Below are positions 7,279 through 31,700 of a stretch of 50,587 nucleotides of DNA, piece by piece (the stretch's first letter is position 1; each line of letters begins with the position of its first letter). The stretch spans positions 1-50,587 of the IMG/VR virus record IMGVR_UViG_3300017989_000155; one strand, given 5' to 3'. This DNA is from a virus. The notes under the pieces are model-generated. The model was given only the letters and a program-made list of their open reading frames with translations, was not told the DNA's origin and did no database searches. The position numbers were made by a program, and so were the translations under genes.

Positions 7279-7310
7279 ACTGGCACTATACCATTCGGAA
7301 AATGCCAAAT

Positions 7311-7363
7311 TGCCGCATGCAGCAGTTTTTGATGTCAAAATTTAGTATATGCGGCAGTTTTTT
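7311..7363 (+). terminator. terminator-like hairpin region at the convergent gene junction
   Basis: TGCCGCAT (7311-7318) pairs with ATGCGGCA (7349-7356), followed by GTTTTTT. Inside and after it are two near-identical tracts, GCAGCAGTTTTT (7319-7330) and GCGGCAGTTTTTT (7351-7363). A second inverted pair lies just upstream (GGCATTTT at 7262-7269 and AAAATGCC at 7299-7306). The region lies between the end of the rightward glycan operon and the end of the leftward late operon, where termination is expected. T-runs point to termination of + strand transcripts. Confidence 0.6.
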
Positions 7364-7406
7364 AAATATCCTCGACCTCTATTTTGCAAATTATTTTTAA
7401 TGTTAA

Positions 7407-8827: not shown

Positions 8828-9871
8828 TCACGTTATATCCAATCTAACGCCTTCGATTTTTACACCAAAGGTTTCATAATTTATAAAAGTATCAGAAATA
8901 TTTTTAACAGCTACTATTCTTTTATGTCTAACACTAGATACACCATAATTAGATATAGGCTCAAATATAAGTGTATTACCTGAATTATATGTAGTATCTA
9001 TGTATTTTGGTGTACCTAAGATATTATATATTTCTCTATTAGCACCTGGAGTTACATTTCTAAATAATAAATTTCTATCACATGCATCTACGAAAGTTTC
9101 TATTATAACATTATAATTAGATTCATCCCATCTAGTATTCCAACATCTAATTTCTCTTTCATACCATTCTCCGCCAGTTAGTGTTCCATCGTTTTCATAA
9201 CTTGTTGAATCTTCTAGAGTAGTACCATCTCTATCTGTAAATTTATAATAACCAATTAATTTATCGCTATGTATATCTATACCATTATATACTTGTTTAA
9301 CTTGATTAGCTGTAAGACAAACCCCACTCCATATTCTTACATCATGTATTTGACCACTGAGAGGATTTCCACTACCAGCTCCAATAAACATATTATTTCC
9401 ATGTATTGATGAATTACCACTTAATTCAGTTGCAGTACCCTCTAATTCTCCATTAACATATATTGATAAAGTTCTATCTCCACTGACTTTATCTCCACCA
9501 GCATATGTACCAGCTATATGAAACCATTTATCAAGGTTACCAGCTGAACCACCAGATACCTTAGTTGTACTCTTTGCATAATGAGAACTACTAGCATGAA
9601 AACAAAATACAGGCTCATAATGAGTAGTTATAGATAAACCACAATCTTTATTTGATTCGTGTTTACCAATTATATTAGACCAAGTCCCACCTGGATTAGC
9701 TCCTAGATTGTTTACTTTAATCCAACAACTCATGGATACAGCATTACCTGATGCAGGAGTCATTCCTGATATAGATGATAAAGTTGCATAATCATTACCA
9801 GTCCCATCCCCAAATTTATAAGATCCTTGAGGTATTTTAATATACATTGAACCCTTATCCACCATACTCAT
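8828..9871 (-). CDS. tail adhesin with LamG/concanavalin-A-like domain
   Basis: A 347-residue protein. Residues about 20-225 form a LamG-type jelly roll: VSMSCWIKVNN, NLDKWFHIAGTYAGG, LSIYVNGELEGTATELSG, MFIGAGSG, IHDVRIWSGVCLTANQVKQ and LIGYYKFTDRDGTTLEDSTS are the usual strand motifs of sugar-binding laminin-G_3 domains in phage and archaeal surface proteins. Residues about 240-347 are the C-terminal module shared with the next gene (RWDESNYNVIIETF, VTPGANREIYNILGTP, NTLIFEP). Carbohydrate binding on the host surface is the likely job. It lies 2 bp from the hub gene and 5 bp from its paralogue. Confidence 0.72.
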   Translation of the reverse strand: MSMVDKGSMYIKIPQGSYKFGDGTGNDYATLSSISGMTPASGNAVSMSCWIKVNNLGANPGGTWSNIIGKHESNKDCGLSITTHYEPVFCFHASSSHYAKSTTKVSGGSAGNLDKWFHIAGTYAGGDKVSGDRTLSIYVNGELEGTATELSGNSSIHGNNMFIGAGSGNPLSGQIHDVRIWSGVCLTANQVKQVYNGIDIHSDKLIGYYKFTDRDGTTLEDSTSYENDGTLTGGEWYEREIRCWNTRWDESNYNVIIETFVDACDRNLLFRNVTPGANREIYNILGTPKYIDTTYNSGNTLIFEPISNYGVSSVRHKRIVAVKNISDTFINYETFGVKIEGVRLDIT

Positions 9872-12800: not shown

Positions 12801-13638
12801 TTTTTTCGGTATTTTCCCAAATTTCAAAGTTAAGAGTACCAGGTTGATTTGGATCAGTAGATCTATCTAAATAAAATTTAACTGCAGATAAACTAACCTC
12901 TTCAGCATTAAATAATTGAGCTATATATACTCCAGAAGGGATAACTGTTGTTGCATCATGATAAGGTAAAATAGTTTTTTGAGAGTAACCTGTACCTCCA
13001 ACAACTAAAACATCATTAACTAAATCTTCATCAGCTTCTTCAATAGGAGTCATACCTATTATGTCATCTTCAGTTATATTAAATTGATATGTTCCACTTT
13101 CAGCTTTATAATATTTAAACTCATTCTCCTCATTCACATAGAATCTATAGTTATCTATGTCCGTTAATTTTACAAGAGCATCTCCAACAGTCATATTTGT
13201 TAAATCAAATTCATCTGTTAGTTCAACACCACCTGTTACAATTATTGAGGATGTATCTATACCAGTACAATATGTACCTATAATTGATGATGCAATGAAA
13301 GCAGTAGTCCCTTCATATAAAGCGTTGTCATCAGTTGCATATCTCCACAAATCGTAAGTTTTACCAACTAATTGGTATGTATTATATGCAGTTCCAGCAT
13401 CAATTTGCTGTTGTTTTCTAGATATATACCCATTAAATTGCAATACATCATCTATCCATACCATAACCGTTTCACCAACAATGTGATTAGTTTGTGTATT
13501 AAATGTCACTATTTTACCATTTTGGTAATAAGTTTGATCAGAATTAGTTATTTCTAAATATGAAACATTACTACCATTAGTTAATATTTCTTCTGATGAT
13601 TGACCACTATCAATAGTTATATTGAAGGATGTACCCAT
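9874..13638 (-). CDS. tail hub/baseplate protein with inserted beta-sandwich adhesin domains
   Basis: A 1254-residue protein directly after the tape measure (1-bp overlap). The N terminus (residues 1-215: FNGYISRKQQQID, TYQLVGKTYDLWRYATD, MTVGDALVKLTDIDNYRFYV, NEFKYYKAE) and C terminus (last ~100: INTLETAQTRADQEVLNM, KGTITIEGRTDM) look like the two halves of a gpD/gp27-type tail hub. Between them lie several beta-sandwich units: one choice-of-anchor-like domain (YFAQIFKPSVNCVCYKIGM ... ASGTKYAIVVYNS), and two copies of a module beginning GSVESEIYTET and GIIESKLYTVG with an internal NGT(S/T)W segment. The last residues form a short coiled coil (VSKLEKQLETGD). It probably caps the tail tip and displays binding domains. 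Confidence 0.68.
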   Translation of the reverse strand: MGTSFNITIDSGQSSEEILTNGSNVSYLEITNSDQTYYQNGKIVTFNTQTNHIVGETVMVWIDDVLQFNGYISRKQQQIDAGTAYNTYQLVGKTYDLWRYATDDNALYEGTTAFIASSIIGTYCTGIDTSSIIVTGGVELTDEFDLTNMTVGDALVKLTDIDNYRFYVNEENEFKYYKAESGTYQFNITEDDIIGMTPIEEADEDLVNDVLVVGGTGYSQKTILPYHDATTVIPSGVYIAQLFNAEEVSLSAVKFYLDRSTDPNQPGTLNFEIWENTEKTLFTDDFDNWGYLTNTTSSNVVLEYSDLKLERKGTSLHAHTQTYGTQTLSCGWGNYFAQIFKPSVNCVCYKIGMQHHNANPSYNPYTYELRTTSGGDPSDTVLASGNVSVTFSNNFWGYITLYDEVQLASGTKYAIVVYNSTGDCPSVAYDKWTNGVDDATHRYRTTDCEAMYATSKTGPWNTFSADHGGSFDEIDLTFKVYVVSSGGYNISGSVESEIYTETCKYMKATLTDTFSSNYILLSGSNDNGTSWITLTDGEWSEFSSESSTGCILKYILSSNGDFSPKIGGATLSISDNSGGFDEEILNDPFNDVTTYMSGDTAISSCSYDGKLQIEGTGARHTSGYPSYTDTEGAGYPEYIASNNDFTATAWTDNVNYINDTRMYEPYYAHANGWVDGYGTTIYMYYDYPVTTDGFTVLQGKGGYTVEAWISTSAGVSWQKVYHEENEALNVQPYSRSFKNGYTYSGVKGFRLEITNNTGAPMYDINNYGVFLHSLPDYKSSGIIESKLYTVGTNVNMSYLLVEPTTETVPDNITYYGTCDNGTTWDKLTPNESTTMTTPGKEVKLKIVMEPSGTVSGFGKSGLTHKPVTPTIDSCKLTAWLVQGGGFPKSGTKIEWSDDISFSDTDVPYPPAETNWKTYTSPKLSGLTVDDKYWCVLYTKGDITTSTIFSDDFSTDTWTQTEYTSYDAANDRYRLGADGPSQNGNIEKWDIATGGDYTTLWVTVSTYPYVNPAHMYIYISGNGYDFSVGSYVGHILESDPPEGTYTFKIPDERNPGNGNIGIKIRGMYKGMYATNCKVEGATSFWGFGYDDVTDYDGKITFSNNEGTDWYSHATSSSTVPDGNMSMQLGWKQGSISAKASNQTSIDLYGRHFKKISDENINTLETAQTRADQEVLNMDSIPRKGTITIEGRTDMSTEYMFSSNLTNFGISSLWDIRSYTQKIDKNGFTTTINYGEQPFDMAAKVSKLEKQLETGD

Positions 13639-16600
13639 TATCTTGAACTCCTATATCTATACTTGAACTCTTCTGACATATCTTGAACTGATCCTATACC
13701 TGTTACATTAACTGGACCTAATATATTGAAATTATCTGTATATGTATCTCCATTCCCACCTACTGAGGATGATGCACCTCCACCGAATATTCCACCTGTC
13801 TGATGTAACATTTCTGGATAATATTCAGTCAATACAGTTTCAAGTATATTTCTACCAAATTTTCTATTTGCACCTTCTAGAGGTATTAAAGCTTCAGCTC
13901 CAGCTTCACCAAATACTCCAAGAGTTGCTCCTTTAGCTATACCTCCTCTAGCAAAACCTCCTATACCAGGAATAAAATCAGGAACAATTCCTTGTTTACC
14001 AGATAGATAATCCCCAGCACTTTTTTTAATATCTTTAACTATATTAACAACTCTATCTCTTATACCTATTAAAGTTTCAAATAACCTATTTTTAACTGCA
14101 TTTATACCGTTAATTAAACCTTGTATTAGATTCCAACCTGCACTATATAACCAATTAGCTGCATTAGTGAATTTATTAATTATATTTAGATATACATTAT
14201 GTAAGGTTGATGTTATTGTAGAAACTACTGACCTTATACCATTAGCTAAACCAGTTATTATATTTCTACCTGCACTTAATAACCAAGTTATAGCTCCAGC
14301 AAATTTACCCTTTATTTGATTTATTAATTCAGTTATAGTTGATAATAGAGATGAAATCATACCAATGATTCCATTTATTAAACCTGTTATTAAATTTCTA
14401 CCCCATTCAAAAAATTTAGTGGTTAATGTATACATATGAGAATATAATATCATAGGTAATTGCATTATGGGTATCACTATCCTTGTAAATATAGTTAAGA
14501 ATCCATTTATAAACCAATCTACAAGTGTTCTACCAGCTTGCATAAACCAAGATGCTACACCAGTTATTGCATTTACAAAACCAGTGGCTATATCATTAGC
14601 TAAAGAACCCCAGTCTATAAAACTCAGTAAGTTAAACAATATATCGTAAAACATAAAAATAGGTGATATGGCTTTAAGAATTTGCCATAATGCAGCCCAG
14701 AAATCTGGTGCACTCTTACCTGCATCTTTAGCTAATTCATCATAATCTATGTTTTCTAAATCTTCTCCTAACTCATCTTTATCTAACAATTCAGCATTTC
14801 CGATAGTGATATATAGATTACTAACATTCATTGTTGCATCATCTAAATCACCTATATATTCTCCACCGATTAAGAAATCACTTGCATTAATACCAACTTT
14901 AGTTCCCAATAAATCGACTTTATCCATAAGTGTTTGAGTTGCACTTGCAACATCATTGGTTGTATCCTCAGCTTTTTTCATCGCTAAAGCATATGTTATT
15001 AAACCATCTTCAGCATCATATAAATTCTTATAAACCCTTTGTATAGAAGTTGCTAATTCATCTTGAGCATCATCTGTATTTTCTGAACTAACTAAGAAAG
15101 CTTGCATTGCTAAATCTCCACCTAACATCCCCTCTTCATACATTCCTAATTGAGTTCCTACCATTTTGAGTGTTGCTGCCAATATTAAATCCTCATCACT
15201 GAAATCTGACATACCTTCAGCTGATTTACCTGTTAAAGCATTAATTTCTGCAACTGACATTGCACCTACACCTAATGTGTCAGTTAATTCACCAAATATA
15301 TCTTGCATAGATTCCCCTTCATCCATTAATGCAGTTGCCATTTGACTAACTACGCTTAAGACTACTTCAAAGTTCTCTGCAACTTCTTCTTGTTTATCTC
15401 CTAATTTAGCTTCAGCTGCGGCTAACTCATACGCATTATCAATTAAATCATAATATTGTTTAGCAGTTTCAGATGATACTATCCCAGTTTCTGTCAAATC
15501 TCCAACTAAAGGAGTCATTTCAGCATCTAATTCTGATGTAGCTTTTTTCAAATCATCTTGGGCATCCTTCATTGATATAAAAGTATCTACATTAGCTATA
15601 CCAGCATTCCTTAATTCTTGTTCAGTTGCTTCTCCTTTCATATAAGCTTTTACTAAATTCTCTTCTTCTTCAGTTAAATCTGATAATGCTTGTATATAAG
15701 AATGATTTAAGGATAACACAGCTCCTTCAGCTTTTTCCATTTCAACATATTTATCTATCATTTCGTCACTAATTAAACCTTGTTCAGCTAATGTTTGGAA
15801 CATTTCATCTAATTGATCATCTTCATCATGTCTTAGTTTATATAGTTTATATTCTATTTCAAATAATTTGTCTTGAACTTCGTATAATTTAGCTACTCTA
15901 TCTTCTAGATATTTATAACCTTCAGCTCTTACTTTTTGTAGATGAGCTAATCTAGCATCCCATAGAGCATCCTCAGCTTTAGCTGCTATTAATTGTTCTC
16001 TAGCAACTATTACATCTCTAGTTAATTCTAATAAATCCTTTTCTTCCTTACCTAAAACAGTTGTTGCACGAGAGACATCATGTAGAGTAACTTCCCCTTC
16101 TTTGAGAGCATTATTAACAAGATTCCAAGCTTCACTAGATTCAACTTCTAATTCAGATATATCCTCTGTTATATCTATACGATTCCTAATAGCTGACATT
16201 AAGTCCTCTTCTGCATCAACAGCTTCTGATGTACCAGCCCCATATTCTAACATGGCATCGGTTAAATCCTCTGTAGCTTCTATAACATCTCTTTCAGCTC
16301 TCTCTAAATCATCATGTTTACTCTTTATCTTAAATGTAGCTTCAGCCCATTTTTCTAATTTTCCTACATAGAAATCTAGAGATTCAGTTAATGTCCTAAC
16401 ATCTCTGATTACCCCACCTGTTGCTGATATTAGAGATTTTTCAGATGCTACTACATCCATATTAGCTCTCTCAAACATTTCATCCCAAGCAACTAATGGT
16501 CCAAATTTTTCTATTAATTCATCTAAATCTTCACCATATACATTAGTGATTCCATCAGCTTGTATTAAAGCTCTATATATATCTTGATATATTTTAACTT

Positions 16601-18896
16601 GTTGTGTATCTCCCAACGCCATAGCTTCATCAGCTAAACTAGATGTAGCCGACGCTAAATCAGTTGTTCCCATTGCTTGAGCTCGAGTTAAGATAGCAAA
16701 TTTAGCTTGATCTCTAGTTAATGCATATAGTGACACTTCATATCTATCAAAGGTATCCTTTAATTGAGCACCTGCAACATTCATATCACCAGCTACTTTT
16801 ACGAATAATATACTACTCTCAGTCATTTGTTGTGTATTAAAGATTACTTCTTTACCAGCTTTCCTCATTTCTTCAGTGGACATATCAACTAAGCCAAATG
16901 TAAAATTTTCTACGAAACCTCTACCCCATTGTTCAGCTACACTTCCTCCACCTTCTTTTGCTATTTCTTCCATAGTAGCAGATCTACCTGCAAATTTATC
17001 AGGATCTAATAAAGCTTCCATACCTAACATAGCTGAGCCTAATATTCCAGCTGGAGCACCTTGTTTGATACCATCCCAAAGGTTATCAAAGGCTTCATCC
17101 ATATCCTCAACACCAGCTGTTAATTGATATACATAACCAGTTACACCTTTTAAAGTACTAGCAAAGTATTTTTGTTCAGAATTTAATTCATTTATTGGTT
17201 GTAACATAGACCATAAAGCTACAGCCGCTATCACAATAGCACCTATCAATAATAAGATAGGATTAGCCATAATAATTTTGGATAACATTATTAAACCTTT
17301 ACCTAATACAGATGCACCGAATGCAGCTGCTAATTCAGACTTAAATAACGCCCAATTACTTAAAGTTAATTTTAGAGATGCAGCAGTATCCATAGTTTTA
17401 GCTAAAGCTACAGCTATAAATTTAACAATAGATGATGCTAAAATCACATTTAATAATTTATAGCCTATATATAATAATATTATAAAAGGAGATAATTTCA
17501 ATAATATATTAATTAAGGGTTTGAATATCTTATATAGTCTACCAACTATATCAGCAAAACTTCTTAAAGCTGGGACTACAGAATCCTTTACGAATGATAT
17601 AACTTTTTTGATGGTTGGTAATAATTCCTCCGCTATATCCATACCTAAAGTTTGAAACTCGTGTTTCATAAGTTCCATGGCACCATAAAGAGTATTTTGT
17701 TGAGCTGAAGCTAAAGAGGATGTAATTCCTTCAGCCATTTCATATCTTTGTGATAGATAAGCTACTGCTTCAGCATTAGCTACCAATACTGCTGCAGCAC
17801 CAGCTGTTCTGGCTCTAAACATATCAACAGCTGTACCTGCATTAAATGAGCTTTCTTGTAAGCGGAACAATACATCCATTAGGTTATTACCTAAAGGTGT
17901 TATTTCTTCCATTTCATAACCCATAGCTTGTAAAGTGTTTTGAGCTTTATCAGTGGGTTTAATTAATTTAGTTAAAATCATAGCCAATCTCTGACCAGCT
18001 TGCCCTCCAGCTAATCCTCTATCAGCTAATACTGCTAGAGCTGCGGTAGTTTCAGCTACTGATACTCCTAGAGTACCAGCTATTGGAGCTACATATTTCA
18101 TACCTTCTCTTAACTTTTCCATAGTTAAGAATGAAGTTGTAATTGCTGATGTAAATATATCAACCACTTGAGTTGCATCAGCTAATTCTAATGAAAATGC
18201 TTTTAATGTTACTGTTACTGCTTGTATAGACTGTTTTAAATCCGATTGAGTTGCTGTAGCATAATTAATGAAAGGCATTAAATCCTGTTCACCCATTTGT
18301 GATACATCATATCCTGCACTAGCTAAATCATAAAAAGCATCTATAACTTGTTGAGCTGAAAACAAAGTATGTTTACTAAGAGCTTTAGATACACCCATAA
18401 GGTGTTTTTGAACGCTTTTCATTGATGCACCAAGATAACCACTAACTGATGCTGCATTTACAGCTGCTCTTTCAAAATCAGCAAAACCTTTTATCATATC
18501 TACGAAGGCTTTTCTAACCATCATAACCATCTGTACACCAATACTGAAAGTTATATAGTGGATAATCTTACCAAAGAAAGATTGAAATGATAACATATTT
18601 TTCATCATCATTCCAAAAGTTTGTTTTGTTTGTACTGAAGTTCTAGCCATTCCTACCTGATAACCCTTTAAACCTTTTGTAACGTTTACACTTGCATTTA
18701 CTCCAGCATCTTCAAAATCCTTTAATTGACTTTCAGCTTGTTTTAATGCAGGGTTTAAACTAGAAAATCCTCCTGCACCTTTCTTCTGCATATTAACTGC
18801 GGCTTTAGAAACTTCTTTTGAGGCAGCTTGTAAACCCTGAGTTAATCCCTTTATATCAGCTTTTAAGAAGACTGTTAAATTTCCTAAACTAGTCAT
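13638..18896 (-). CDS. tail tape measure protein
   Basis: A 1752-residue protein and the clearest tail-length determinant. The N-terminal third has the TP901-type tape-measure core (FADFERAAVNAASVSGYLG, LSKHTLFSAQQVIDAFYDLA, LRRGM-like LREGMKYVAPIAGTLGVS, TAALAVLADRGLAGGQAGQR). Hydrophobic stretches follow around residues 460-500 and 540-570. The middle is long, helical and acidic (SELEVESSEAW, EEEENLVKAYMKG). The C-terminal part repeats GRNLITGLINGI, GRNIITGLANGI and GWNLIQGLINGI, then FARGGIAKGATLGVFGEAGAEALIPLE, cited here in part, which is typical of tape-measure C termini. At about 0.15 nm per residue a tail near 260 nm would be expected. No lysozyme, peptidase or pseudomurein hydrolase domain is visible, in line with a host lacking murein. 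Confidence 0.93.
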   Translation of the reverse strand: MTSLGNLTVFLKADIKGLTQGLQAASKEVSKAAVNMQKKGAGGFSSLNPALKQAESQLKDFEDAGVNASVNVTKGLKGYQVGMARTSVQTKQTFGMMMKNMLSFQSFFGKIIHYITFSIGVQMVMMVRKAFVDMIKGFADFERAAVNAASVSGYLGASMKSVQKHLMGVSKALSKHTLFSAQQVIDAFYDLASAGYDVSQMGEQDLMPFINYATATQSDLKQSIQAVTVTLKAFSLELADATQVVDIFTSAITTSFLTMEKLREGMKYVAPIAGTLGVSVAETTAALAVLADRGLAGGQAGQRLAMILTKLIKPTDKAQNTLQAMGYEMEEITPLGNNLMDVLFRLQESSFNAGTAVDMFRARTAGAAAVLVANAEAVAYLSQRYEMAEGITSSLASAQQNTLYGAMELMKHEFQTLGMDIAEELLPTIKKVISFVKDSVVPALRSFADIVGRLYKIFKPLINILLKLSPFIILLYIGYKLLNVILASSIVKFIAVALAKTMDTAASLKLTLSNWALFKSELAAAFGASVLGKGLIMLSKIIMANPILLLIGAIVIAAVALWSMLQPINELNSEQKYFASTLKGVTGYVYQLTAGVEDMDEAFDNLWDGIKQGAPAGILGSAMLGMEALLDPDKFAGRSATMEEIAKEGGGSVAEQWGRGFVENFTFGLVDMSTEEMRKAGKEVIFNTQQMTESSILFVKVAGDMNVAGAQLKDTFDRYEVSLYALTRDQAKFAILTRAQAMGTTDLASATSSLADEAMALGDTQQVKIYQDIYRALIQADGITNVYGEDLDELIEKFGPLVAWDEMFERANMDVVASEKSLISATGGVIRDVRTLTESLDFYVGKLEKWAEATFKIKSKHDDLERAERDVIEATEDLTDAMLEYGAGTSEAVDAEEDLMSAIRNRIDITEDISELEVESSEAWNLVNNALKEGEVTLHDVSRATTVLGKEEKDLLELTRDVIVAREQLIAAKAEDALWDARLAHLQKVRAEGYKYLEDRVAKLYEVQDKLFEIEYKLYKLRHDEDDQLDEMFQTLAEQGLISDEMIDKYVEMEKAEGAVLSLNHSYIQALSDLTEEEENLVKAYMKGEATEQELRNAGIANVDTFISMKDAQDDLKKATSELDAEMTPLVGDLTETGIVSSETAKQYYDLIDNAYELAAAEAKLGDKQEEVAENFEVVLSVVSQMATALMDEGESMQDIFGELTDTLGVGAMSVAEINALTGKSAEGMSDFSDEDLILAATLKMVGTQLGMYEEGMLGGDLAMQAFLVSSENTDDAQDELATSIQRVYKNLYDAEDGLITYALAMKKAEDTTNDVASATQTLMDKVDLLGTKVGINASDFLIGGEYIGDLDDATMNVSNLYITIGNAELLDKDELGEDLENIDYDELAKDAGKSAPDFWAALWQILKAISPIFMFYDILFNLLSFIDWGSLANDIATGFVNAITGVASWFMQAGRTLVDWFINGFLTIFTRIVIPIMQLPMILYSHMYTLTTKFFEWGRNLITGLINGIIGMISSLLSTITELINQIKGKFAGAITWLLSAGRNIITGLANGIRSVVSTITSTLHNVYLNIINKFTNAANWLYSAGWNLIQGLINGINAVKNRLFETLIGIRDRVVNIVKDIKKSAGDYLSGKQGIVPDFIPGIGGFARGGIAKGATLGVFGEAGAEALIPLEGANRKFGRNILETVLTEYYPEMLHQTGGIFGGGASSSVGGNGDTYTDNFNILGPVNVTGIGSVQDMSEEFKYRYRSSR

Positions 18897-18905: not shown

Positions 18906-19226
18906 TTAATCTTGTTCTACATCAACAACTTGAATAGCATCTCTTTGGGTTATTTTCTTGTAGCCATAAGAACCACCTAGATTATGATAACCGTGCCAGA
19001 TTACTACCCATACACCTAAAGGATCAGTTTCACTTGGAGTGAAATAGTATGAATATTCTCCAACGCCATCTCTAGTAGTTGATGCATCCTCTATAAAATA
19101 AGTTCCATCGGATTTAATTACATCAACAAATGCAACACTTCCTGATGGATCTGTTAGAGTATCATTCATCTTGAAATCTATTTCGGTTTTTATGGTATTA
19201 TGCCTTTCAAATTTACTAAGACTCAT
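18906..19226 (-). CDS. small tail protein with single Ig-like domain
   Basis: A 106-residue beta-rich protein immediately upstream of the tape measure gene. The segment GVGEYSYYFTPSETDPLGVWVVIWHG has the alternating pattern of an Ig-like or A2M-type beta sandwich (Y-Y-F, then VWVVxW). The C terminus (DAIQVVDVEQD) fits a final strand. No specific family is recognised. The place between repeat protein and tape measure suggests a minor tail protein. Confidence 0.5.
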   Translation of the reverse strand: MSLSKFERHNTIKTEIDFKMNDTLTDPSGSVAFVDVIKSDGTYFIEDASTTRDGVGEYSYYFTPSETDPLGVWVVIWHGYHNLGGSYGYKKITQRDAIQVVDVEQD

Positions 19227-19261: not shown

Positions 19262-20953
19262 TTAATCTGCAGCTTCATATGATATTGAAGTTGAAAACAC
19301 TGATGAATTACTTATCGAAATATCATATAAATCTGTATTACTTATAGACATATCAAATACTGATGTATTGGTTATCCTTCTCGAGAATAAATCCGATACT
19401 GATGCAACCATATTATAAAAAGAAGAATGTGTTTGGGTGGCTGTATCTATGAATACAAACCTAAACAATCCAGCTGTTATATTATGTGAACTTGTTACAT
19501 TTTCAGTTGAAATGAGTGTATCTAATAAATATTTCTTATCAGATAATCCCTTTAGTATCGTATCCTCTATTAAATTTGATTTAAAAGTATATGATAATAT
19601 TGTATCTAGAAGATAGCTTTTTAATATGTTGGATGTAGATAATATTGCATCCTGATAATATTGACTTTCATTCTCCTTAGATAATATTGTATCTTGAAGA
19701 TACTCTGGCATACCTGTTATTGATAAGATGGTATTAGTTATGTAACTTTCCTCTACATTTAAATCTTTTAACAATACATCAGTTAAAAATTCTTTTTTTA
19801 CATTTAATTTATTTACTATTGTATCTATTGATATCCTATCAGTTCTAGCTAAACTCAATAGAGTATCAGTTGTTATTTCTTCCTCTATATCTAACAAGGT
19901 TAATAAAGTATCTAATTTATATTCTTTAGTGTTAGCTCCCATAGATAAATAAGTATCCATTAAATATGATTTTGGGATATTTATTTTTTTAGCCAACAAA
20001 TCTATAAAAGCTGATTTTGCTGAAGTTTCAGTTAATATTGTATCTATATTGTAACCTTTAGATAGAGTTTTATATAATAAAGTATCTATATCATATTCTT
20101 CTAAACTAGCTCTAGATAATATTATATCTATATTCATACCTAATTCAACTGTATGCTCTAATAAGATATCTATGAGATATTTTCTATCGACATTTAATTT
20201 ATTGAGAATAGTATCAAATTTCATATCCTTTTTGATATTTTCTCTAATTAGTATGATATCTATTGGGATATCCTTTTCTAATGATACCCTACTTAACAAT
20301 ATATCAAATAATGTATCTTTATCTACATTAAATTTCTCTAATAATGTATCCATATCTATTTTTTGCTTAACCAATACGTCTTTTAGTAATGTATCAAAAT
20401 ATAAATACTTATAAGAAAATCCATATACTAATACTAAGGATATAGCATATGAGACACTTTCTGATTGATTTTCTAAGATAGTATCTACATTTACATTCTT
20501 TTCTAATAATTTTAATAATACTGTATCTATAACCTGTTCTACTGTTAAGTTTTCTCTACTTAACATAGTATCTATATCTGAATCTACACTTCTTATTCTT
20601 TTAGCTAGCATATCTATGAGATAATTTCTAGATACACCACTCTCTAAAAGAGCATCGATAGTTATTTCATCCTTTCTTAATAAGGTTAATAAAGTATCTA
20701 TATTTATATCTTTTATTTCTGATGATTGCGTTATTACATCATTAAGGTAATTACTAGTATCCTTTCCTTCTAATAATGTATCTATTATAATATTCTTTTC
20801 TACACTAGTCCTTGATAATAAAGTGTCATAGATTACTCTACCTTTATCAAGTCTTGATAGTAATGTATCTATCAAAAACTTTTCTAGGATTGTATTAAAT
20901 CCAGATTGCCCAAATTTTCCTGTGCCAAACTTGGCTGAAGTAATTATTGCCAT
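19262..20953 (-). CDS. tandem 15-residue repeat protein (about 30 IDTLL repeats)
   Basis: A 563-residue protein that is almost entirely one repeat. After MAIITSAKFGTGKFGQSGF, about 30 copies of a 14-16-residue unit follow to about residue 480, each centred on (I/L/F)D(T/I/V)(L/I)L and followed by a charged turn, for example YLIDILLEHTVELGMN, NIDIILSRASLEEYD, KFDTILNKLNVDRKY. The C-terminal 35 residues change to a shorter repeat, ISNTSVFDM, ISNTDLYDI, ISNSSVF. I know no family with this pattern. A regular spacing of D and L every ~15 residues suggests an elongated solenoid of short helices or a rod. It lies in the adhesin block upstream of the tape measure and so may be a fibre shaft or a tail sheath-like accessory. 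Expression is from the late strand. Confidence 0.55.
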   Translation of the reverse strand: MAIITSAKFGTGKFGQSGFNTILEKFLIDTLLSRLDKGRVIYDTLLSRTSVEKNIIIDTLLEGKDTSNYLNDVITQSSEIKDINIDTLLTLLRKDEITIDALLESGVSRNYLIDMLAKRIRSVDSDIDTMLSRENLTVEQVIDTVLLKLLEKNVNVDTILENQSESVSYAISLVLVYGFSYKYLYFDTLLKDVLVKQKIDMDTLLEKFNVDKDTLFDILLSRVSLEKDIPIDIILIRENIKKDMKFDTILNKLNVDRKYLIDILLEHTVELGMNIDIILSRASLEEYDIDTLLYKTLSKGYNIDTILTETSAKSAFIDLLAKKINIPKSYLMDTYLSMGANTKEYKLDTLLTLLDIEEEITTDTLLSLARTDRISIDTIVNKLNVKKEFLTDVLLKDLNVEESYITNTILSITGMPEYLQDTILSKENESQYYQDAILSTSNILKSYLLDTILSYTFKSNLIEDTILKGLSDKKYLLDTLISTENVTSSHNITAGLFRFVFIDTATQTHSSFYNMVASVSDLFSRRITNTSVFDMSISNTDLYDISISNSSVFSTSISYEAAD

Positions 20954-20955: not shown

Positions 20956-22338
20956 TTAATAAACACTCGTTTTAATATAAGCTTCTGAAGGAGTAGGTCC
21001 AGCATCTGCAGCATATGTGGCATACATACCACGAACATAACCTGCATATTTATCTCCACCCATTGGATCGTCAAATGCAGGAGGTGAAGTACAAGTGGCA
21101 TTATATTGTATTGATAAACCATCAGAAGCATAAAATACACTAATATGATCATGTGTTCCACCTGCATCAGACGTTGCACCAAGAAGGTATTCAGTTGATG
21201 CAGTAACAGCAACTGGTGATGCAAATGTATGAGTTACCCATTCAGTAGTTTCTGCAGTATTATTACCTTTATGTACATCTCCAGTTTCTTGTATTAAATT
21301 CTTACTACTATCAAATAAAGCACATCTACTATCAAACTCTCCACCAGAATCAGTCCAATAATATGCATAGATACTTATGGATTCTATATTACCTCCACCA
21401 TCTCCTGCTGTTGAGGCATATAAACCTTGAGTCCTACTATCAATATGATTAGATGTACCACCTTCAGTTTGATCTCCAAACCAAGGATCTATTGATAGAG
21501 TTTCACCAGAAGATATAGCACCAAATGTTGCCCCTATTCTAAGACAATATGTAGTTTCACTGTTAGGTAAAGTTACTTCTTCTATCTTAACAAATCTATT
21601 ATTAGAGTTTCTAAATATACTATCAAATTCAAAGTGACACAATAATTTTGATTTATCATCATTATAAAAATTAAATATATAAGCATCTAAAGATGGTATA
21701 CTGGTTATCTCCATTAATTTAGTTATATCATAATCTGTATATACAAATGTACCTTCTTCACCAGGAGCCCCTGGTTCATAAGTTGTATATACTCTTACCC
21801 ATTTAATATTCTTTTGTGCATCGGATGCAAAATCAGGATTCAAGTAGAATTGATATTCAATACCAATATTCTGTAAATCAATTGGGGTTGTTATTTTAGT
21901 CTTTAATGCCTGTGGTAATCCTAAAGGCTCTGCTAATACAGCTACATCAACATCAAAGTCATTACCACCGTAGTCTATTGTACCTGTCCAACCCATCTTA
22001 CGTTCATCAGGAGCTATATTATCATTTGTTTGATGATAAGGGGTTCTTACAGTATCTGTTGTAGTTATATAGAATTTATGCCAATTATCATTTATTTTAC
22101 CCCATGCTTTCTGATAGATATAAAATAAAGGTTTATCATATGTATATGGTTGTCTTGGATACCATGTGATACACCCCAGATTCTTATGAAAACCAACAAT
22201 ATGATTTTTAGATTTGAGTCCTATCTCTTTAACTTGAGACCAAACTATATCATCCCAATTGACATCATTTAATATTGAATCATCTGTCTTTCTTATTATG
22301 ATTTGTAAATCTTCTCCTATACTTCCTAATACTTTCAT
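20956..22338 (-). CDS. adhesin-like protein with choice-of-anchor-type domain
   Basis: A 460-residue soluble beta-rich protein without signal peptide or membrane segment. The N-terminal half (GSIGEDLQIIIRKTDDS, HIVGFHKNLGCITWYPRQP, NIKWVRVYTTYEPG) is unrecognised. From about residue 280 comes ETLSIDPWFGDQTEGG followed by a jelly-roll-like domain (IESISIYAYYW, SRCALFDSSKNLIQETG, TEWVTHTF, ASTEYLLGATS). The same DPxFG-led domain appears in the membrane-anchored protein two genes upstream, so the two are paralogous in this part. The stop is 2 bp before the repeat-protein start. A virion adhesin is likely by position. Confidence 0.5.
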   Translation of the reverse strand: MKVLGSIGEDLQIIIRKTDDSILNDVNWDDIVWSQVKEIGLKSKNHIVGFHKNLGCITWYPRQPYTYDKPLFYIYQKAWGKINDNWHKFYITTTDTVRTPYHQTNDNIAPDERKMGWTGTIDYGGNDFDVDVAVLAEPLGLPQALKTKITTPIDLQNIGIEYQFYLNPDFASDAQKNIKWVRVYTTYEPGAPGEEGTFVYTDYDITKLMEITSIPSLDAYIFNFYNDDKSKLLCHFEFDSIFRNSNNRFVKIEEVTLPNSETTYCLRIGATFGAISSGETLSIDPWFGDQTEGGTSNHIDSRTQGLYASTAGDGGGNIESISIYAYYWTDSGGEFDSRCALFDSSKNLIQETGDVHKGNNTAETTEWVTHTFASPVAVTASTEYLLGATSDAGGTHDHISVFYASDGLSIQYNATCTSPPAFDDPMGGDKYAGYVRGMYATYAADAGPTPSEAYIKTSVY

Positions 22339-22339: not shown

Positions 22340-22684
22340 TTATAACTCCCAAGAATCGTTATCTAGATATAATTCATTACCGTAACTTAACGTATCCATA
22401 TAAATTTCCCCACCACCTAAAGAAAAATTTAATTGTTTTCCAGGATCCGAAACTACTAATTTAAATGAGCCATTCTTTTGTAAATTATCATTCTTACATT
22501 TTACACTCACTGTTATACCTGAAGATGCATAATCTTGTAAATTTATCAAATATTTACCATCATTATCAGTTGTATCTGTTGTAGCTGTATCTCCTATTGC
22601 TTCAACTGTTGCACCCGAAATACCAGTAGATCCATCAGATTGATAGATATAACCATATAGTATCCACGGAAATGCCAAAGTCAT
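22340..22684 (-). CDS. small secreted-type protein with carboxypeptidase-regulatory-like Ig domain
   Basis: A 114-residue protein, overlapping its upstream neighbour by 1 bp. GYIYQSDGSTGISGATVEAI followed by GDTATTDTTDNDGKYLINLQ is the pattern of CarboxypepD_reg-like (CNA-B-like) beta-sandwich domains: a G-xV strand, then T-DxDGxY. The C terminus returns to short hydrophobic strands (GNELYLDNDSWEL). Such domains act as stalks or spacers in surface and fibre proteins. Hydrophobic N terminus (LAFPWILYGYIY) is too short to call a signal peptide. Confidence 0.55.
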   Translation of the reverse strand: MTLAFPWILYGYIYQSDGSTGISGATVEAIGDTATTDTTDNDGKYLINLQDYASSGITVSVKCKNDNLQKNGSFKLVVSDPGKQLNFSLGGGEIYMDTLSYGNELYLDNDSWEL

Positions 22685-25600
22685 TATTTACCGCCTATCT
22701 CTAAAGTTTCTGCATCAGTTACCGCTATCATAATTACATCATCTTCATGTATATCTATTGTAGGTTCCCAAAACCCTACTATAAAGAAATCATCCCAATC
22801 GTGAGTAGTTGAATTCCAATAATATATTATTTCATTAGCATCTAGAGTAGTTGTTATATGAGTATCAGCTATATCATTTGCTGTAGTTGAAGCATCATCA
22901 GTCCAACTAACATAATTTTTAGCACCACTTGTAGTAACTAAGGATACACTTCTAGTTGCAGTATAATCGATATTAGTATTTTCTAACATATCTATAGTTT
23001 GTGTACCTGAATCATCCAAATATATTTTAATTATATCAAATGTGTGTAATTCTAAATCGGTACCTGTACCATCACCATACCATAATTGCCACCAACCATG
23101 TGTTTCGTCATAGCTATCATTATTCCAGATAGCTATATATTCTGTAGAACTATCAAATCCTGTTATGTTATCGTCAAAATCACTAGCTGATATGTTACCT
23201 CCTAGATATACAAAATAATCTATACCATCATTTCTTATAGTTGCATTATAAGTAACATCTACATCAGTAATCCATGTTACATTATAATAAGTTATATTAA
23301 TATTTCCTGTAAATACTCCTTTAACTCTTATAGTTCCATTGGTTACACTACTAATGTCATCACCATTACCCGTAAGGCTACCTAATAATTCATTATTTGA
23401 TGTATCCACTATACTAAATACTGAACCGCTATCATTATCATGACCAACATAAAGTTTATCCCATGTTGTTCCCGTAAGAGTTATATCCTTACTAATGAAA
23501 TTTCCATCACTATATGTATCAGTATAGGTATATCCGGCATAAAAAGTAAAATTACGAACAGTATAGGTATAAGCTGGAGTCCAAGGATTTTCTGGAAAAT
23601 TAGTAAAAGTTAATGTATCCCCATAAGCTGAGTTATAACCTGATACACTAACAGCATTATAATAACAATTGCAAGTAGATGATGCTCTAGCAGCTAAACA
23701 ATATCTAGTACCTGCGGTTACAGATAAGGGAGTATCGAATTCAGCTTTAAACCAACTTCTTGAAGTAGTATTCCAAGTATCTGTTATTGTAGTATTACCA
23801 ATTAAGGATAAATCAGAATATAAATATAATGCAATTTTTAAATCAGTTGTTGCAACCGTAAAATCTAAATTTAGATAATAATATTTTATATCCCCTGATT
23901 TAGGGGCAATAAAGTTTGCTGAATACATATAAGAGCCAAGAGCTTTATTTGTTGCTCCTCTATGAACTTGTTTACCAAAAGTATCATCAATATCCTCACT
24001 CAAAACAAATACACCTTTACCTGAAGAAAATGTTACATTAGTACTAGTTTCTATAAATCCAATATTATTAATTGAATCATTGAAATAATCACTCCTATAT
24101 GGTGTTGTTACAAAATTACTATAAAATGTACTATTAAATACTGCATCATTTGCAGTAACCTTCATATAATATAGTTGGCTATAATCATTTAAATTGCTAG
24201 ATAAATCAACAGACACACTTTGATTTAAGATAGTAGTATTTTTACCTATATGAGTCCAAGTAGCATTATCAGTTGATATATAAAAGTCAACCGCACTATT
24301 GTTACCATCCAAATCAGTAACGGTAACATTATATATTGCTGACATACTTATGTTGGAGCCTTCATTAGCTGGAGTTGGGTTAGATATAATAGGATAAAAC
24401 TCCTCTTCATAATCAATATATGCAAGCGAATCAACTGTTGCCGATACAGAAGTATCAGCATAAAATGTATCAGGTGGAACTCCAGAATAAGGATCATGAT
24501 AATGAGATACAAGACCTGATCCACTTATGGTAGTTGACTTACCATTTTCAGTATATAGACTTATTTTATATTCAACCCCATTCTCTAATATAAATTCATT
24601 ACTAAAATTAACTTGATACCATTCTGCTGAGGAAACTGATATATCATCTAAAGTTGCAAGTAAATTATCATTACTATCATATATACAAGGCACTACATCA
24701 TAAGCATCACCTTCTACACCATAGAAATTAAATGAAACAGGAGTACCATCATTGCCAGAAAATGTTTTAGCTGTTGCTCTAATACACGCCCATATTGCAC
24801 TAGCAGAACCAGTAACTGAATCATCATCATTTCCAAAATGTGGATCAACCGTAAAACTGTTTCCAGCATTAAGGGTTTGATTGGATATTATTCTGAACCA
24901 GAAATATTCATTATCTCCAATTGTTTTTATACCATGTTTAGCATGAATTTTACCAGCTTGAACAAGGCTTTTAATATCACTAAAATTAAAAAAGACATTA
25001 TATTCTTCTGTTTCATTTGCTTGAAATGTTAATATATAATTCCACTTGGTAGAACTCTCATTAATATAATTCTTTACTCGTAAGTCTATAGCAAAACTAA
25101 AACGAAACTTCAACGCTTGAGTTGGATGGTTATTAGTAACAGTTAGATTTATTTTTTCGGATGTATTATCAATATTTGGTGTTCGCTCTATATTAAGCCA
25201 TTGATTTAGATTAGTTCCCTCCCATTCATCTAGCCATTCAAGACTTACTGGATGTTGTGCTTCAAGTTGCCACAGACTATTCTCTCTGAATAGCTTCCAG
25301 AATGTAGTTTTATTTAAATTTTTAACAACCACTCTATTACCTAAAACACTTTTATTTTCTAGAGATGGTGGATATATATAATCAAATGCTGGATCATCAA
25401 TTGGACTATCACTTGGAGTAATTGGAGGTAAATCAATATCCTCTATTAAGATAACACCAGCAGTGGATGCTGATGTAGCAAGTAATATTGCTAAACCTTT
25501 CTTTTTATTCCTTTTAACCCATTTGATTATTGGATCTTTATATAATATAATTATAATTAAAGAGGATAAAATTACACCTATTGGTATACTTATCTTCTTA

Positions 25601-25710
25601 GGTAAATCTAAATAAAATAAAGCTAATATCATCACTATTATAGATGATATAGCTATTATAGGTTTTATGAGAGTAGAACTCTTAAATAAACTATTTATTT
25701 TCTCTATCAT
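22684..25710 (-). CDS. membrane-anchored adhesin-like protein with large ectodomain
   Basis: A 1008-residue protein with three N-terminal hydrophobic helices (about residues 14-34, 41-57 and 72-89), the last two separated by a basic loop (KWVKRNKKKG). The remaining 900 residues are beta-rich and contain many N-x-S/T sequons. Recognisable units: NSFTVDPHFGNDDD plus a jelly-roll-like domain, a bacterial-Ig-like unit (PIISNPTPANEGSNISMSA, YYMKVTANDAVFNST), a choice-of-anchor-type unit (YLNLDFTVATTDLKIALYL, SVTAGTRYCLAARAS), and a C-terminal archaeal surface-protein-like part (NYVSWTDDASTTAND, EIIYYWNSTTHDWDD). A three-helix anchor is unusual for a virion adhesin. It may sit in the host membrane or at the virion tip. 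Sequons suggest exposure outside the cell. Confidence 0.55.
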   Translation of the reverse strand: MIEKINSLFKSSTLIKPIIAISSIIVMILALFYLDLPKKISIPIGVILSSLIIIILYKDPIIKWVKRNKKKGLAILLATSASTAGVILIEDIDLPPITPSDSPIDDPAFDYIYPPSLENKSVLGNRVVVKNLNKTTFWKLFRENSLWQLEAQHPVSLEWLDEWEGTNLNQWLNIERTPNIDNTSEKINLTVTNNHPTQALKFRFSFAIDLRVKNYINESSTKWNYILTFQANETEEYNVFFNFSDIKSLVQAGKIHAKHGIKTIGDNEYFWFRIISNQTLNAGNSFTVDPHFGNDDDSVTGSASAIWACIRATAKTFSGNDGTPVSFNFYGVEGDAYDVVPCIYDSNDNLLATLDDISVSSAEWYQVNFSNEFILENGVEYKISLYTENGKSTTISGSGLVSHYHDPYSGVPPDTFYADTSVSATVDSLAYIDYEEEFYPIISNPTPANEGSNISMSAIYNVTVTDLDGNNSAVDFYISTDNATWTHIGKNTTILNQSVSVDLSSNLNDYSQLYYMKVTANDAVFNSTFYSNFVTTPYRSDYFNDSINNIGFIETSTNVTFSSGKGVFVLSEDIDDTFGKQVHRGATNKALGSYMYSANFIAPKSGDIKYYYLNLDFTVATTDLKIALYLYSDLSLIGNTTITDTWNTTSRSWFKAEFDTPLSVTAGTRYCLAARASSTCNCYYNAVSVSGYNSAYGDTLTFTNFPENPWTPAYTYTVRNFTFYAGYTYTDTYSDGNFISKDITLTGTTWDKLYVGHDNDSGSVFSIVDTSNNELLGSLTGNGDDISSVTNGTIRVKGVFTGNINITYYNVTWITDVDVTYNATIRNDGIDYFVYLGGNISASDFDDNITGFDSSTEYIAIWNNDSYDETHGWWQLWYGDGTGTDLELHTFDIIKIYLDDSGTQTIDMLENTNIDYTATRSVSLVTTSGAKNYVSWTDDASTTANDIADTHITTTLDANEIIYYWNSTTHDWDDFFIVGFWEPTIDIHEDDVIMIAVTDAETLEIGGK

Positions 25711-28700
25711 TAATACACCGATACTTGCATAAATCCAGTTCCATATTGGATACCCGATGCACCACCACCTGAATACATGAATCTTATTTCTGTTTTACCA
25801 CCATCAGATACTCCTAAAGGACTACCTTGTTGTAATTCCGCTGAGGATGTCTTATAGACACTTGTAGAGCCTGATAGTAATTCTATGCATAAATCACCCA
25901 CCATAGCACCACCTGAATTACAAGCTGCGGCTTGCCAGATATAAGCCTTTTTACCAGCTGGACATGTAAATCTAGTTACATTAATATTTTGCTGAGCTGA
26001 TATCATAATGTTAGCTACATTGAAATTCATAGCTGGCATTTTGTTTTCCCAATCAGCTCCATCCCACATTAATACCTCTCCACTAGCTGGAGTATTAATA
26101 TTAGTATCAGTATGACCTGATATTAACATCATATCATGTTCATCACCAGCTCCATCTTGGAAGTAAAATTTATTATCGGATTTAGTATATATTGCTCCCA
26201 TAGAAGCTTTAGCTGAAGGGGTTGTGGTTTCTGCAAAGAAATGAACCCCATTTGCATTAAAGTTATGTTTATGGGTTGTTTGATGTAAAAATCTAACTTC
26301 ATCTGTTGCATCTTGTAAAGCTACATGAACATAATCATTATCAAGGATATCCATAAATGGATAATCGGTACCTGCACCAATTCTTAAAGCATTACCAGCT
26401 CCACCTTGCCCCCAAAGATAAGACCAATCTCCTGAACTACGGAGTTTAAATATTTGAGTTGCACCTGAATTAATTATTATTGGATCCTTACTTCTTATAT
26501 CACTAGTATTTATTATTGTTGAAGATATATAAGGTATAGCAACTAAACCATAAGAGCTCTGTCCATCTAATTCTCCACCTAATTGAGGTGTAGTATCCTC
26601 TACTACATTATCTATACCTCCACCTGCTGCAACTGGACCTTGGAATACAGCACAAGATATAGTATGGGCTTGTAATGAACTACTAGATATACCTATCTTA
26701 GAACCTGATAAGCATATTTGACCTGAGCCATATAGTCTAATATAAGGATAATCATCTAAAGTATTGGCTTTTAATTTTAAATCATCTCCACTAGTTGCCC
26801 CACCTTCTATAGTAGATACATTTGAAGCATAAGAAAATTTAAAGTCTTGTGTAGATTGTTCCCAGAATGTGATGTCAGCATTAGAATATACCCTAACATC
26901 ACCTGCACCATACATAATCATATAAGGATATGAATCGGAAGTATTTGCCTTTATTTTTAAATCGTCATTAGCAGTTGTGCCTCCCTCAATTATATTATCG
27001 TCACCATCTCTATAAAATTGGAATAATTGTGTAGTTCCAGATCTTAATACTATATTATACTTAGAATCTAAATATATATTTGATTTAGCTGTATCAGTAG
27101 ATATATATGTACTTGGAGCGGAATAAGAAAATTTAAGGGCATTTGTTCCATTATCATAAAAGAAAGTATCTCCATCTGTATCAAATACTATATTACCTCC
27201 ACCTTGTAATACTATATTTGGATAAGTATCGGAAGTGTTTCCATATAAGGTTAAATCATCACCAGCTGTGGTACCACCATATATCTTTTTACCTATATAT
27301 TGAGCACTGGAAGCACTAGCACCTGATAGATTTCCATAGAATGTCACTGCAGTTAATGAGCCGGTTGTGGTATCGTCAGCGTTATTTACAAGATAATCAG
27401 TGTGAGCTTGAGTGTTGTCTTGACTATGGGTATAGGCTGTTCCATATTTTGAACTTGATGTTTTATAATATCCCAATACGCTACCTGATGCATCCGCAAA
27501 GTCTTTTCCTTGTTTAGCTTGAGATGATATAGTAGCATATCCTAATACTGTAACATCATTATCACCAGAGCCACTAATACCTACACCTGTTATGGGTGCA
27601 ATACCAGTTCCTTCTGTAAGTGTACCCCATGTTGTGGGTGTATCGGACATTGCATCGATTTTAGTATCCAAAGCTCCTGATACAGTATTTACATAAGCTT
27701 TAATAGATTGTTGTGTAGCTAAGGATGTTGCACTATCACTTGCAAAACTATCCTCATCTAATATAGATGTAACCCTAGTTGCACCTACTTTTAAGGATGC
27801 AGTTGATATAGCTATTCCTGATACAGGTCCATAAAATGTTTTAGCGGTTAAACTACCAGTAGTAGCATCATCATTATTATTAAGTAAGTAATCGCTATGA
27901 GCTTGAGTATTATCTTGTGAGTGAGTGTAAGCAGTCCCATATTTAGTACTAGAGGCTTTATAATAACCCAGTACACTCCCTGAAGTGTTAGCAAAATCTT
28001 TACCTTGTTTTGCATTTGAGGATATAGTTGAATATGCAACTACTTCTAAAGATACTGCAGTAGAGCCACTAACTCCAATAGCCCCTTCAAATGGTGCTAT
28101 ACCACTATCAGCTGTAGCTGTGAGGGTAGTCCAATTTGTTGGAGTATCAGATAAGGCATCTATCTTTGTATCTAATGCACCCGATATAGTATTAATAAAT
28201 GCTTTTATGGACTGTTGAGTAGCTAATCCAGTAGCTGAATCTGATGCAAAACTATCTTCATCATATATTTCATTAACTCTAACGGCACCTATTTTTAATG
28301 TATTACTAGATATATTTTGTGAGGATACTGACACTAAACCTTCTAAAGTTGTATCAAGATTAATGGTTCTTGTTGAGGTTATATCTCCTCCACCATTAAG
28401 ATTAGTACCTGCTGTAATATCTACACCAGAATGGTCTATATGTTCATCAGCTACAAAGTTAGTTGTAGCATCATGGTCTACATGTTTACTATCATAAAAA
28501 GCAATCTGAGCAGAAGCATAAGCTTGATGGTATTTCTGAGCAGAAGTCTTATAGTATCCTAAGATACTTCCAGAGGCATCTGCATAATCCTTTCCTTGCT
28601 TTGCTTGAGAGGATATAACTAGATAACCCGGAACACTTATAGTTAATGCACCATCACCTGATATTGCATATGCACCCGTCATTCCAGCTATACTTCCATC

Positions 28701-31700
28701 ACCTGCTGTGAATGCTTGCCAAGATGATATACCACCTTGAGGTGCAGCTTGACTAGACCATTTATTTTGAGTTGTATCCCAAGTTAATAAATCTCCATCA
28801 GCTCTATTATGCATGACAGCTACATCAATTAATCCTGATATATTATCATATAATGCACCAACTGATGAAGGGTAATAATTATGAGATATATGAGTAATTA
28901 TAGAGCTTGATATAGCATTTACTTCTGTTTCAGTATAATATCTATCATCATGTGTGTGACTTGCATTAGCAAATATACCAGTACTAGTAGATATATAGGC
29001 TTTTTGCCAGTTAGCTCCAGATTTAATAACATCTTGAGGTATATCTGATAAAGTAACTTTTAAAGCACCTGATATCTTTCCTACTCCAATAAGAGTAACA
29101 CCAGATGCAGAGGTTGGTGCTGTCCAAGATGATGGAGCACCATCAATAGAAGGATGTATATGTAATGCATCAGCATCTGAGCCATCAGTTAATGTTTCTA
29201 ATTGTGATGCGGTTGCATCAGTTCCACCAATGAATTGAGTAAATCTAATTGTATTAGCTGATATTTTAGCACCCGATAAATAACCACTTAAGTGATTAAT
29301 GTGTTCTGATGCTACAAAATTAGTAGTTTCATCATGATTAACATGAGCTGAATCATAAAAAGCTATTTGAGAAGATTGATAGGCTTGATGATACTTCTGA
29401 GCGGATGTCTTATAATAACCAAGAATACCTCCAGATGCATTAGTATAATTGTAAGCTTGAATAGCATTGGATGATATCGTATCTATATAATCTTTATTTA
29501 CTACACCACTTGCAGTATATCTACCATCGTGAACATGTAAAGTGGATGCATCTGAACCATCCGTTAATGTATCAAAATTAGTATCATCTGTAGCGGTTAA
29601 GTGATAGTATTCACCAGTAGTACCTCCTTGTATACCACCTAAATCGTTATGTTGGTCTACATTACCAGCAGTAAATGATGTAGTCCAAGGATAAGAATAG
29701 GTTGCATCATCTAAAGAAGTTTGACCTTGTTGAACTATTACCCTAGCAGCTAGAATACTTGTGACATCTAATTGAGATGGTATTGTTGCAGGGGTAATAG
29801 AATCCTCAGCTTGTGCAAGGGTATAGTCACCTTGACCATATAATATATTAACATCACCTGTTATATCAACATATACCCAATGTACACCATATCTATTAGA
29901 TGTTAGTGTATTTAATGTACCTGAATTATCATCATAATAATCAATATTTAAACCTACTTGCCCACTTGAATTATACCAACCACTAGAGCCATCTCTCCAC
30001 CAATAAGTAAATACATTATCATGTAAATGTCCATCAGCAGTGGTATCAGATACCCCCTTACCATTTCCACTCCATATATATATTCTTTTATAACCAGCTG
30101 AACTTGGAATAGTAGTGGAACTAACAATATATATTCCATCATTTCCAGTGGATTCTTGTACTAATACATGATTTCCTCTAACTACGGTATGGGTACAACC
30201 TGTTACTGAAAACCAATTTTCTTCGTGATTTAGTGCCGTTATATCATGGTTACTCCCAGCATCAAAAGCAGTAGTTGTAAATTTATTTAGAGCTCTCCAT
30301 AAAGTTCCTGTTGTTACTTGTAAAGAAGAGGGATGTCCAGTTGTTTGTGAAGAAGCAGTTATTATACCTGTTTGTCTTTCAGTTCCATATGAACTAAATC
30401 TTTTTAATACTTTATTACCTAAATCATTTATTCTATACCCACCTTCTACTATATGAGTTTCGGGTATGTATCCAGTATCCCAATCATTATAAATTCTAGC
30501 AAAATGTATTTGAGTAGTTCCATTGAAATTTCCAGTAGTTCTATGAGCATATTTAGGTGAGCCACCATTATAATCTATATAAAGATAATGTGAACCTTCA
30601 CCCATTGTAATATTTGATGATGCTACAATATCAGCTCTCCATAATAGAGCATGTTCATCAGTAGCCTCTCTAACTGCTACATATGATTTAGATATATTAA
30701 TTGAACCAGTTGGTCCACCAATAGTTACATTAGCTCCAGATAATAATACTGCTGAGCCGTAATTATCTACCCAACCTTGTAAAGAGCATTCAGTAGCTCC
30801 TGGAAGACAATCCATCATTACATTGTGTTCAGTTACTCCTGATATGTTTTGTGTAGATATAGATATTATATTGAGATGTTGAGTAGATGTACCTGATTCT
30901 TGAAATCTAGCTATTGCACTAGAACTTGTTATGAAGATATTATGATCGAATGCATCTTGAACTCGTTGTCCACTAAGATATGCTTGATGATATTTTTGTG
31001 CTGAGGCTTTATAGTACCCTAAAATAGCACCTGAAGCATTTGTAAAGTTATAAGCTTGTTTAGCTTGACTAGAAACTGTACCAAGGATAGATCCTTGATC
31101 AACTGATAAAGTAACTGCTGATGCTCCACTAATCTTTCCTGTAAAATCGTTGATACCAACTCCATCTTCTATTGTTACCCATCCAACTGTACCTTCTGAA
31201 TTGTCATCCACATATTTTTTAATAGACTGTTGAGTGGCAAGAGCAGTAGCACTATTAGTAGACATATCATCTTCATCTAATATTGTAGTTACTCTAGAAG
31301 CACCCAACTTAAGTGATGCACTAGATATAGCAGTTGATGATATTGGACCTACATATGATTTAGCAGTTAAAGTACCTGATGTAGAGTCATCTCCATCATT
31401 TATTAAGAAAGCATCATCAACATTTAAAGTATTAGTTGATAATGTAATATTAGTGCCAGCTACCAAATTAGTCTCATTCATATCCAATTTAGCTAATGTT
31501 ATTTGTTGATCGGATAATGTAAGGTAGGTTTCTCCTGTTAAGGTTACTCTAGGATGAGCTAATTGTCCTGATAAATATGCTTGGTGATACTTCTGAGCTG
31601 AAGTTTTATAATATCCTAAAATATTACCTGATGTATTTATGTAATTATATGCTTGGAGAGCGTTGCTAGATACTGTACCTAATATAGCACCCTCATCTAC

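Follow-up and report, generated by a model that had tools for sequence, protein, structure and literature searches.

An unnamed repeat of 14 or 15 residues in a putative tail protein of uncultured tailed viruses

The window analysed here is a virus record of 50,587 bases. It encodes a protein of 563 residues that consists almost wholly of diverged copies of a unit of 14 or 15 residues. Judged from its sequence, this unit defines an unnamed repeat family, new in itself but of a kind already known, that of viral tail adhesin and fibre proteins. The protein probably forms an extended piece of the tail, helping the virus to reach or hold its host. We lean towards a structural role in the host-contact apparatus of the tail, as a rod or scaffold whose length is set by the gain and loss of whole units. 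The unnamed repeat joins viral tail proteins that are otherwise unrelated, so that a single structure would inform many of them, and it provides a handle on the host-contact parts of uncultured tailed viruses.

The repetition is far beyond what composition alone produces. The motif [DN][TISVMA][LIVMY][LIVA] occurs 33 times in the window protein, whereas 2000 shuffles gave 4.5 on average and never more than 12. For 25 of these copies, another lies at a distance of exactly 14 or 15 residues further on, compared with a maximum of 3 in 5000 shuffles. Registration by dynamic programming placed 33 units whose 32 spacings are 14 (16 times) or 15 (16 times) and nothing else. Two of these units, near residues 172 and 493, are degenerate and lack the motif, so that 31 units are convincing and the honest count is 31–33. 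The earlier note, which had described about 30 copies filling almost the whole protein, is borne out on both points, the array covering roughly residues 25–508. Its unit of 15 residues at a spacing of 14–16 was right in its regularity, whereas neither a fixed length of 15 nor a spacing of 16 was recovered. Indeed, identity autocorrelation peaks at 14 and 15 (0.181 and 0.166, respectively) and at their multiples, which together with the registration defines a unit of 14 or 15 residues. Autocorrelation in the window protein was at background at lag 7 (0.075), giving no heptad periodicity, and equally at lag 5 (0.084), giving no five-residue periodicity; periods of 5 and 10 residues are limited to the short N-terminal end and the C-terminal beads. 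A super-periodicity of two units (29–30 residues) was absent from the window protein, present in the relative L014 and in both repeat proteins of the more distant contig L042 (z 3.2–3.9) and of opposite sign in the relative L007; given this mixed outcome, it is not claimed.

The consensus of the unit reads [S/E/D/N]-Y-x-I-[D/N]-[T/A/S]-L-L-[S/E/K]-[K/R]-L-[N/G]-[I/V]-x-K, where the [I/V] position is found mainly in units of 15 residues; the additional residue of this longer form falls in the segment following L(+6). Residues that are common helix caps are frequent at position -4, and the succession of Asn/Gly and Ile/Val at +7/+8 in the 15-residue form resembles a helix C-cap; reading these positions as caps is tentative.

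The array is enclosed by two different ends (Table 1). The N-terminal cap carries a motif with a five-residue spacing that is kept in all near relatives, L029 and L033 having D at the G/N position. At the other end, which is likewise conserved, the shorter ISN-type repeat mentioned in the earlier note is real: it is made of 10-residue units, underlain by a 30-base tandem at 19295–19369.

Table 1. Features of the repeat gene and its neighbours in the window.
Feature	Positions	Strand	Description	Basis
Repeat gene	19262–20953	minus	563 aa, ATG start	Open reading frame; identical partial copy in a second contig
N-terminal cap	20873–20953	minus	Residues 1–27, motif A-x-F-x4-F-[GN]-x-S-x-F-N (AKFGTGKFGQSGFN)	Alignments
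Repeat array	19430–20881	minus	Residues ~25–508, 31–33 units of 14 or 15 residues	Motif and spacing tests, registration
C-terminal short repeats	19265–19399	minus	Residues ~519–563, 10-residue S-[VL]-[FY]-x-x-S-I-S-N-x beads	
Next gene	18906–19226	minus	106 aa	65–69% identical in two nearest relatives
Tail length tape measure protein	13638–18896	minus	1752 aa	phrog_1533, E = 7.7e-57
Upstream gene	20956–22338	minus	460 aa	Weak DUF4082 similarity, below cut-off
Upstream protein	22684–25710	minus	1008 aa	DUF4082, 28.5 bits against a cut-off of 28.4
Fibre-like protein	25710–31979	minus	2089 aa, own internal repeats SG-x-x-LGYYK-[TA]-S-x-x-KY...	Translation

The coordinates and the length reported previously for the gene stand, and its strand is corrected to minus, the plus strand being full of stops over the same interval. 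The first 1119 bases of the gene recur with 0 mismatches in a second viral contig (3300029258_001469), which makes an assembly artefact unlikely. The genes for terminase, portal, protease, major head protein and tape measure share its strand, with the major head, portal and terminase genes lying upstream. The repeat gene belongs to the tail module: it sits between a cluster of fibre-like genes and the tape measure gene, which is one gene away, and the same holds in relatives. The 106-aa protein encoded in between is probably a partner or adaptor of the repeat protein. On the other side, the 460-aa product is probably an adhesin or surface-type protein, and family searches with the 2089-aa fibre-like protein gave no match; in the latter, a segment like QAYNYTNASGGILGYYKTSAQKYHQAY recurs several times in imperfect form.

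Elsewhere in the window, a run of glycan- and transport-type genes occupies the plus strand at 489–7278, opposite to the structural genes. It encodes a glycosyltransferase 2, an HNH endonuclease (below cut-off), a sulfotransferase, an MFS transporter, a UDP-glucose/GDP-mannose dehydrogenase and a nucleotidyltransferase, and represents either surface-sugar genes carried by the virus or flanking host DNA. After the tape measure region, a protein at 8828–9871 matches Laminin_G_3, a ConA-like lectin family, strongly (E = 1.7e-19) and is likely, from this match, a carbohydrate-binding part of the tail. Ranked by E-value among the records listed, the best match of the tape measure protein comes from a virus assigned to Methanosarcinales (1e-25), and haloarchaeal viruses come next; such matches hint at an archaeal host and prove nothing.

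Near relatives, which share the N-terminal motif and are followed by the same gene, occur in six other viruses: L007 (591 aa), L014 (767 aa), L022 (~715 aa), L023/L029 (542 aa), L033 (728 aa) and L021. The downstream gene follows the repeat gene directly at every one of these loci and always encodes 102–107 residues. In the two nearest relatives it is 65–69% identical to that of the window, against 33–40% for the repeat protein. The order repeat gene, 102–107-residue gene, tape measure gene is found in the window, L007, L014/L036, L021 and L033, and L029 has its tape measure gene about 3 kb farther along. Registration of the seven family proteins yielded 294 units, with spacings of 14 or 15 in 282 of 287 cases. 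Units within one protein are strongly diverged despite this kept spacing, and the proteins differ in size by whole units. The protein of L033 contains a duplicated block of 11 units (z = 5.2), suggesting how the length of the array changes. L023 and L029 differ by 37 synonymous and 11 non-synonymous substitutions (pN/pS 0.0087/0.101), a ratio that indicates purifying selection on the repeat protein in this pair.

Two of these relatives deserve further description. The contig of L021 closes on itself through identical ends of 123 bases, so that the repeat gene runs across the joint. Its product begins with about 370 residues that end in a weak match to the choice-of-anchor-Q family (E = 0.0013, below cut-off), and for this fused domain tail spike proteins appear only among sub-threshold PDB matches. 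L033 was reached through the neighbour gene in cellular genomes and is filed under a Planctomycetota metagenome-assembled genome; its repeat protein is also present in a virus record of equal length, 26938 bases, and the host name is consequently not trusted. At 2418–7415, a protein of 1665 aa is encoded in the viral tail operon of L033. It has a Peptidase_C25 domain (E = 9.4e-22), and its place is taken in the window by the 1008-aa DUF4082 protein; both have a hydrophobic, membrane-type N-terminus.

The unit extends well beyond this core family, to at least five more distant proteins. Scans with DNA patterns added L004, L008 and L016 and later L042 and L045, which are built differently and keep the 14/15 spacing. 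The profile search suggested in the earlier note was run with a core profile (A7) built from segments of the core family only, leaving out L004, L008, L016 and L042, and it matched the unit in these four differently built viral contigs: L042 at 4.5e-22, L008 at 2.1e-18, L016 at 5.5e-12 and L004 at 2.5e-10. Repetitiveness inflates the E-values of repeat profiles, as an antisense frame of L016 at 1e-4 shows, and all four matches are several orders of magnitude clear of this value. No match was obtained with the core profile in three control contigs or in a huge-phage record. The latter encodes a 1214-aa protein (L018, LR756501.1 635243–643767) with 14-residue repeats of the PPVSGTIDTSFKPH type (IDT-type) that look similar by eye; as the core profile misses it, it is not counted.

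L004, a more distant relative than the members of the window protein's own family, is a single protein of 841 aa. Its C-terminal half is a 14/15-residue array, and towards the N-terminus it matches proteins annotated as tail collar or tail fibre in many phages. L042 has two genes of interest, at 745–2304 and 8945–9640, one tape-measure-like and one of the IDTLL type. The short tape-measure-like protein contains many near-identical 11-residue GFGNWWEGITT repeats, and the other gene, a second one of the IDTLL type in L042, has near-identical tandem units in which recent unit duplication is visible. The units of L045 are nearly identical as well.

The fold of the unit was approached by structure prediction. 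AlphaFold applied to the full window protein with three alignment rows was uninformative (pLDDT 40). A depth-boosted run on a register-checked pseudo-alignment of 41 non-overlapping seven-unit segments reached a pLDDT of 72.9 and a pTM of 0.53, with one short helix per unit. Together with the sequence properties given below, this model favours short helices in a chain over a beta-structured fibre. The main rival is that the array forms a trimeric shaft of the adenovirus type, with Y-x-I-D-T-L-L as strand and the remainder as turn, the helix being an artefact of folding a single chain. The length of 14–15 residues agrees with such a shaft, as do the residues T, I, Y and V, which favour strands, at positions -3 to +3, the high beta propensity of L008 and L042, the T-Y-T-I-D units of L045, whose sequence favours strand over helix, and the hydrophobic periodicity of L004, which peaks at 180 degrees. 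However, blocks of the deep-alignment model have a pLDDT of mostly 70–86 and no strand, and hydrophobic periodicity is helical in the core family (peak at 80–90 degrees) and also in L008 and L042. Nor is there a turn signature: none of the positions of 282 registered 14/15-residue units is regularly Gly or Pro, proline is absent from positions -1 to +4 of these units and rare elsewhere, and the window protein contains only 2.5% Gly and 0.5% Pro. We therefore regard the beta shaft as unlikely, but as a serious rival, since single-chain folding can mislead for fibres.

The model, with its pTM of only 0.53, had no match at E ≤ 0.001 in Foldseek searches of PDB and BFVD, and a second look gave one chain at Z 2.6, which is not convincing; no rod or solenoid was thus actually seen. 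Mutual information, of low power here, revealed two couplings above z = 4, one between positions of a single unit and the other between adjacent units. None reached 4 over offsets of 2–6, and a single value of 4.0 occurred at offset 7. The units would pack mainly on their immediate neighbours. The long, regular solenoid or rod foreseen in the earlier note is plausible, as the strict spacing fits it, whereas the model provides local helices only and no confident global fold.

As for the role of the protein, small and probably mostly helical units in a long array would make a rod, spacer or scaffold of the fibre or spike apparatus. The collar-type fusion of L004, the weak tailspike-like fusion of L021 and the position of the gene together assign the array to that part of the tail which contacts the host. 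These fusions and the tail-module position support the fibre shaft or tail decoration proposed earlier, of which the shaft is no more than plausible. The window protein itself has no receptor-binding, collar, spike or enzymatic domain recognisable by family searches, and the upstream neighbours of 460, 1008 and 2089 aa may supply the missing host-contact domain. The repeat protein would be part of the virion, with the ends of the array attaching it to other tail parts, the number of units setting its reach and the 102–107-residue neighbour acting as its partner.

Alternatively, the protein could be no exposed part of a fibre but an internal or assembly factor, such as a chaperone, a tape-measure partner or a tail-length spacer. 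Its gene is indeed one gene from the tape measure in five loci, but about 3 kb away from it in L029. Moreover, arrays of 33, 36 and 48 units accompany tape measures of 1752, 2343 and 1671 residues, respectively; array size is not coupled to the size of the tape measure, contrary to what a tail-length role would suggest, and the domains fused to the array in relatives are tail domains of the exposed type. We find this explanation quite improbable. Binding of nucleic acid, with unit junctions resembling helix-turn-helix motifs, is hardly credible. It draws on L042, which weakly resembles helix-turn-helix families (phrog_8522, E = 1.1e-6 summed over copies, no single stretch passing). Matches to such families are, however, all sub-threshold, with none at the curated cut-off, the gene sits in the tail module, and the array of the window is acidic (pI 4.6, net charge -24), as the core arrays generally are, six of the seven having net charges from -13 to -62 and the seventh -4.

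The novelty of the repeat was assessed in databases and literature. In Pfam, the window protein had no match at E ≤ 0.1, to a curated repeat family or otherwise, and four relatives had only noise below cut-off. With the window protein, NCBIfam gave nothing above cut-off, a single-sequence search of PDB sequences no match, cultured phages and plasmids nothing, and PHROGs only sub-threshold, partial matches and none at the domain level; a profile search of PDB yielded only marginal matches (best E = 0.028). No relative of the repeat protein was found in cellular genomes, and the repeat was not described in the open-access literature searched. The earlier statement that no family like this was known agrees with the lack of a curated match in Pfam, NCBIfam and PDB, yet a family does exist, comprising six near relatives and, at a greater distance, five or more further proteins.

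Among known systems, the pentapeptide-repeat proteins differ by a five-residue period that does not run through the array, and coiled coils by a heptad period that is lacking here, 15-residue units being as frequent as those of 14 in the window. The adenovirus fibre shaft, a triple beta-spiral of 15-residue repeats, is similar in repeat length and in proposed role, whereas the present array lacks the Gly/Pro turn signature, is predicted to be helical and has no sequence match to it. Right-handed beta-helix proteins of the tailspike type (choice-of-anchor Q, NF041518) are echoed by the weak match ending the fused domain of L021, which is below cut-off there and absent from the window protein. 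Tail Collar (PF07484) fibre and short tail fibre proteins share the position in the tail module, and L004 has a collar-type sequence before its repeat; the window protein, on the contrary, has no collar domain, and its unit is predicted to be helical while known fibre shafts are largely beta-structured. The alpha-solenoids (TPR, HEAT, TAL and similar) are alike in the predicted regular array of short helices. Their units comprise two helices in about 30–40 residues, whereas one helix per 14–15 residues is predicted here, with no Pfam match; to our knowledge, such a single-helix unit is shorter than that of any known alpha-solenoid. We tentatively raise the possibility, which we would not yet favour, that these single-helix units form a continuous superhelix of a kind not described before, an extendable rod or spring in the tails of diverse viruses with its length counted in whole units. 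If true, this would lower the smallest unit size known for helical repeat proteins and would provide a regular scaffold of adjustable length.
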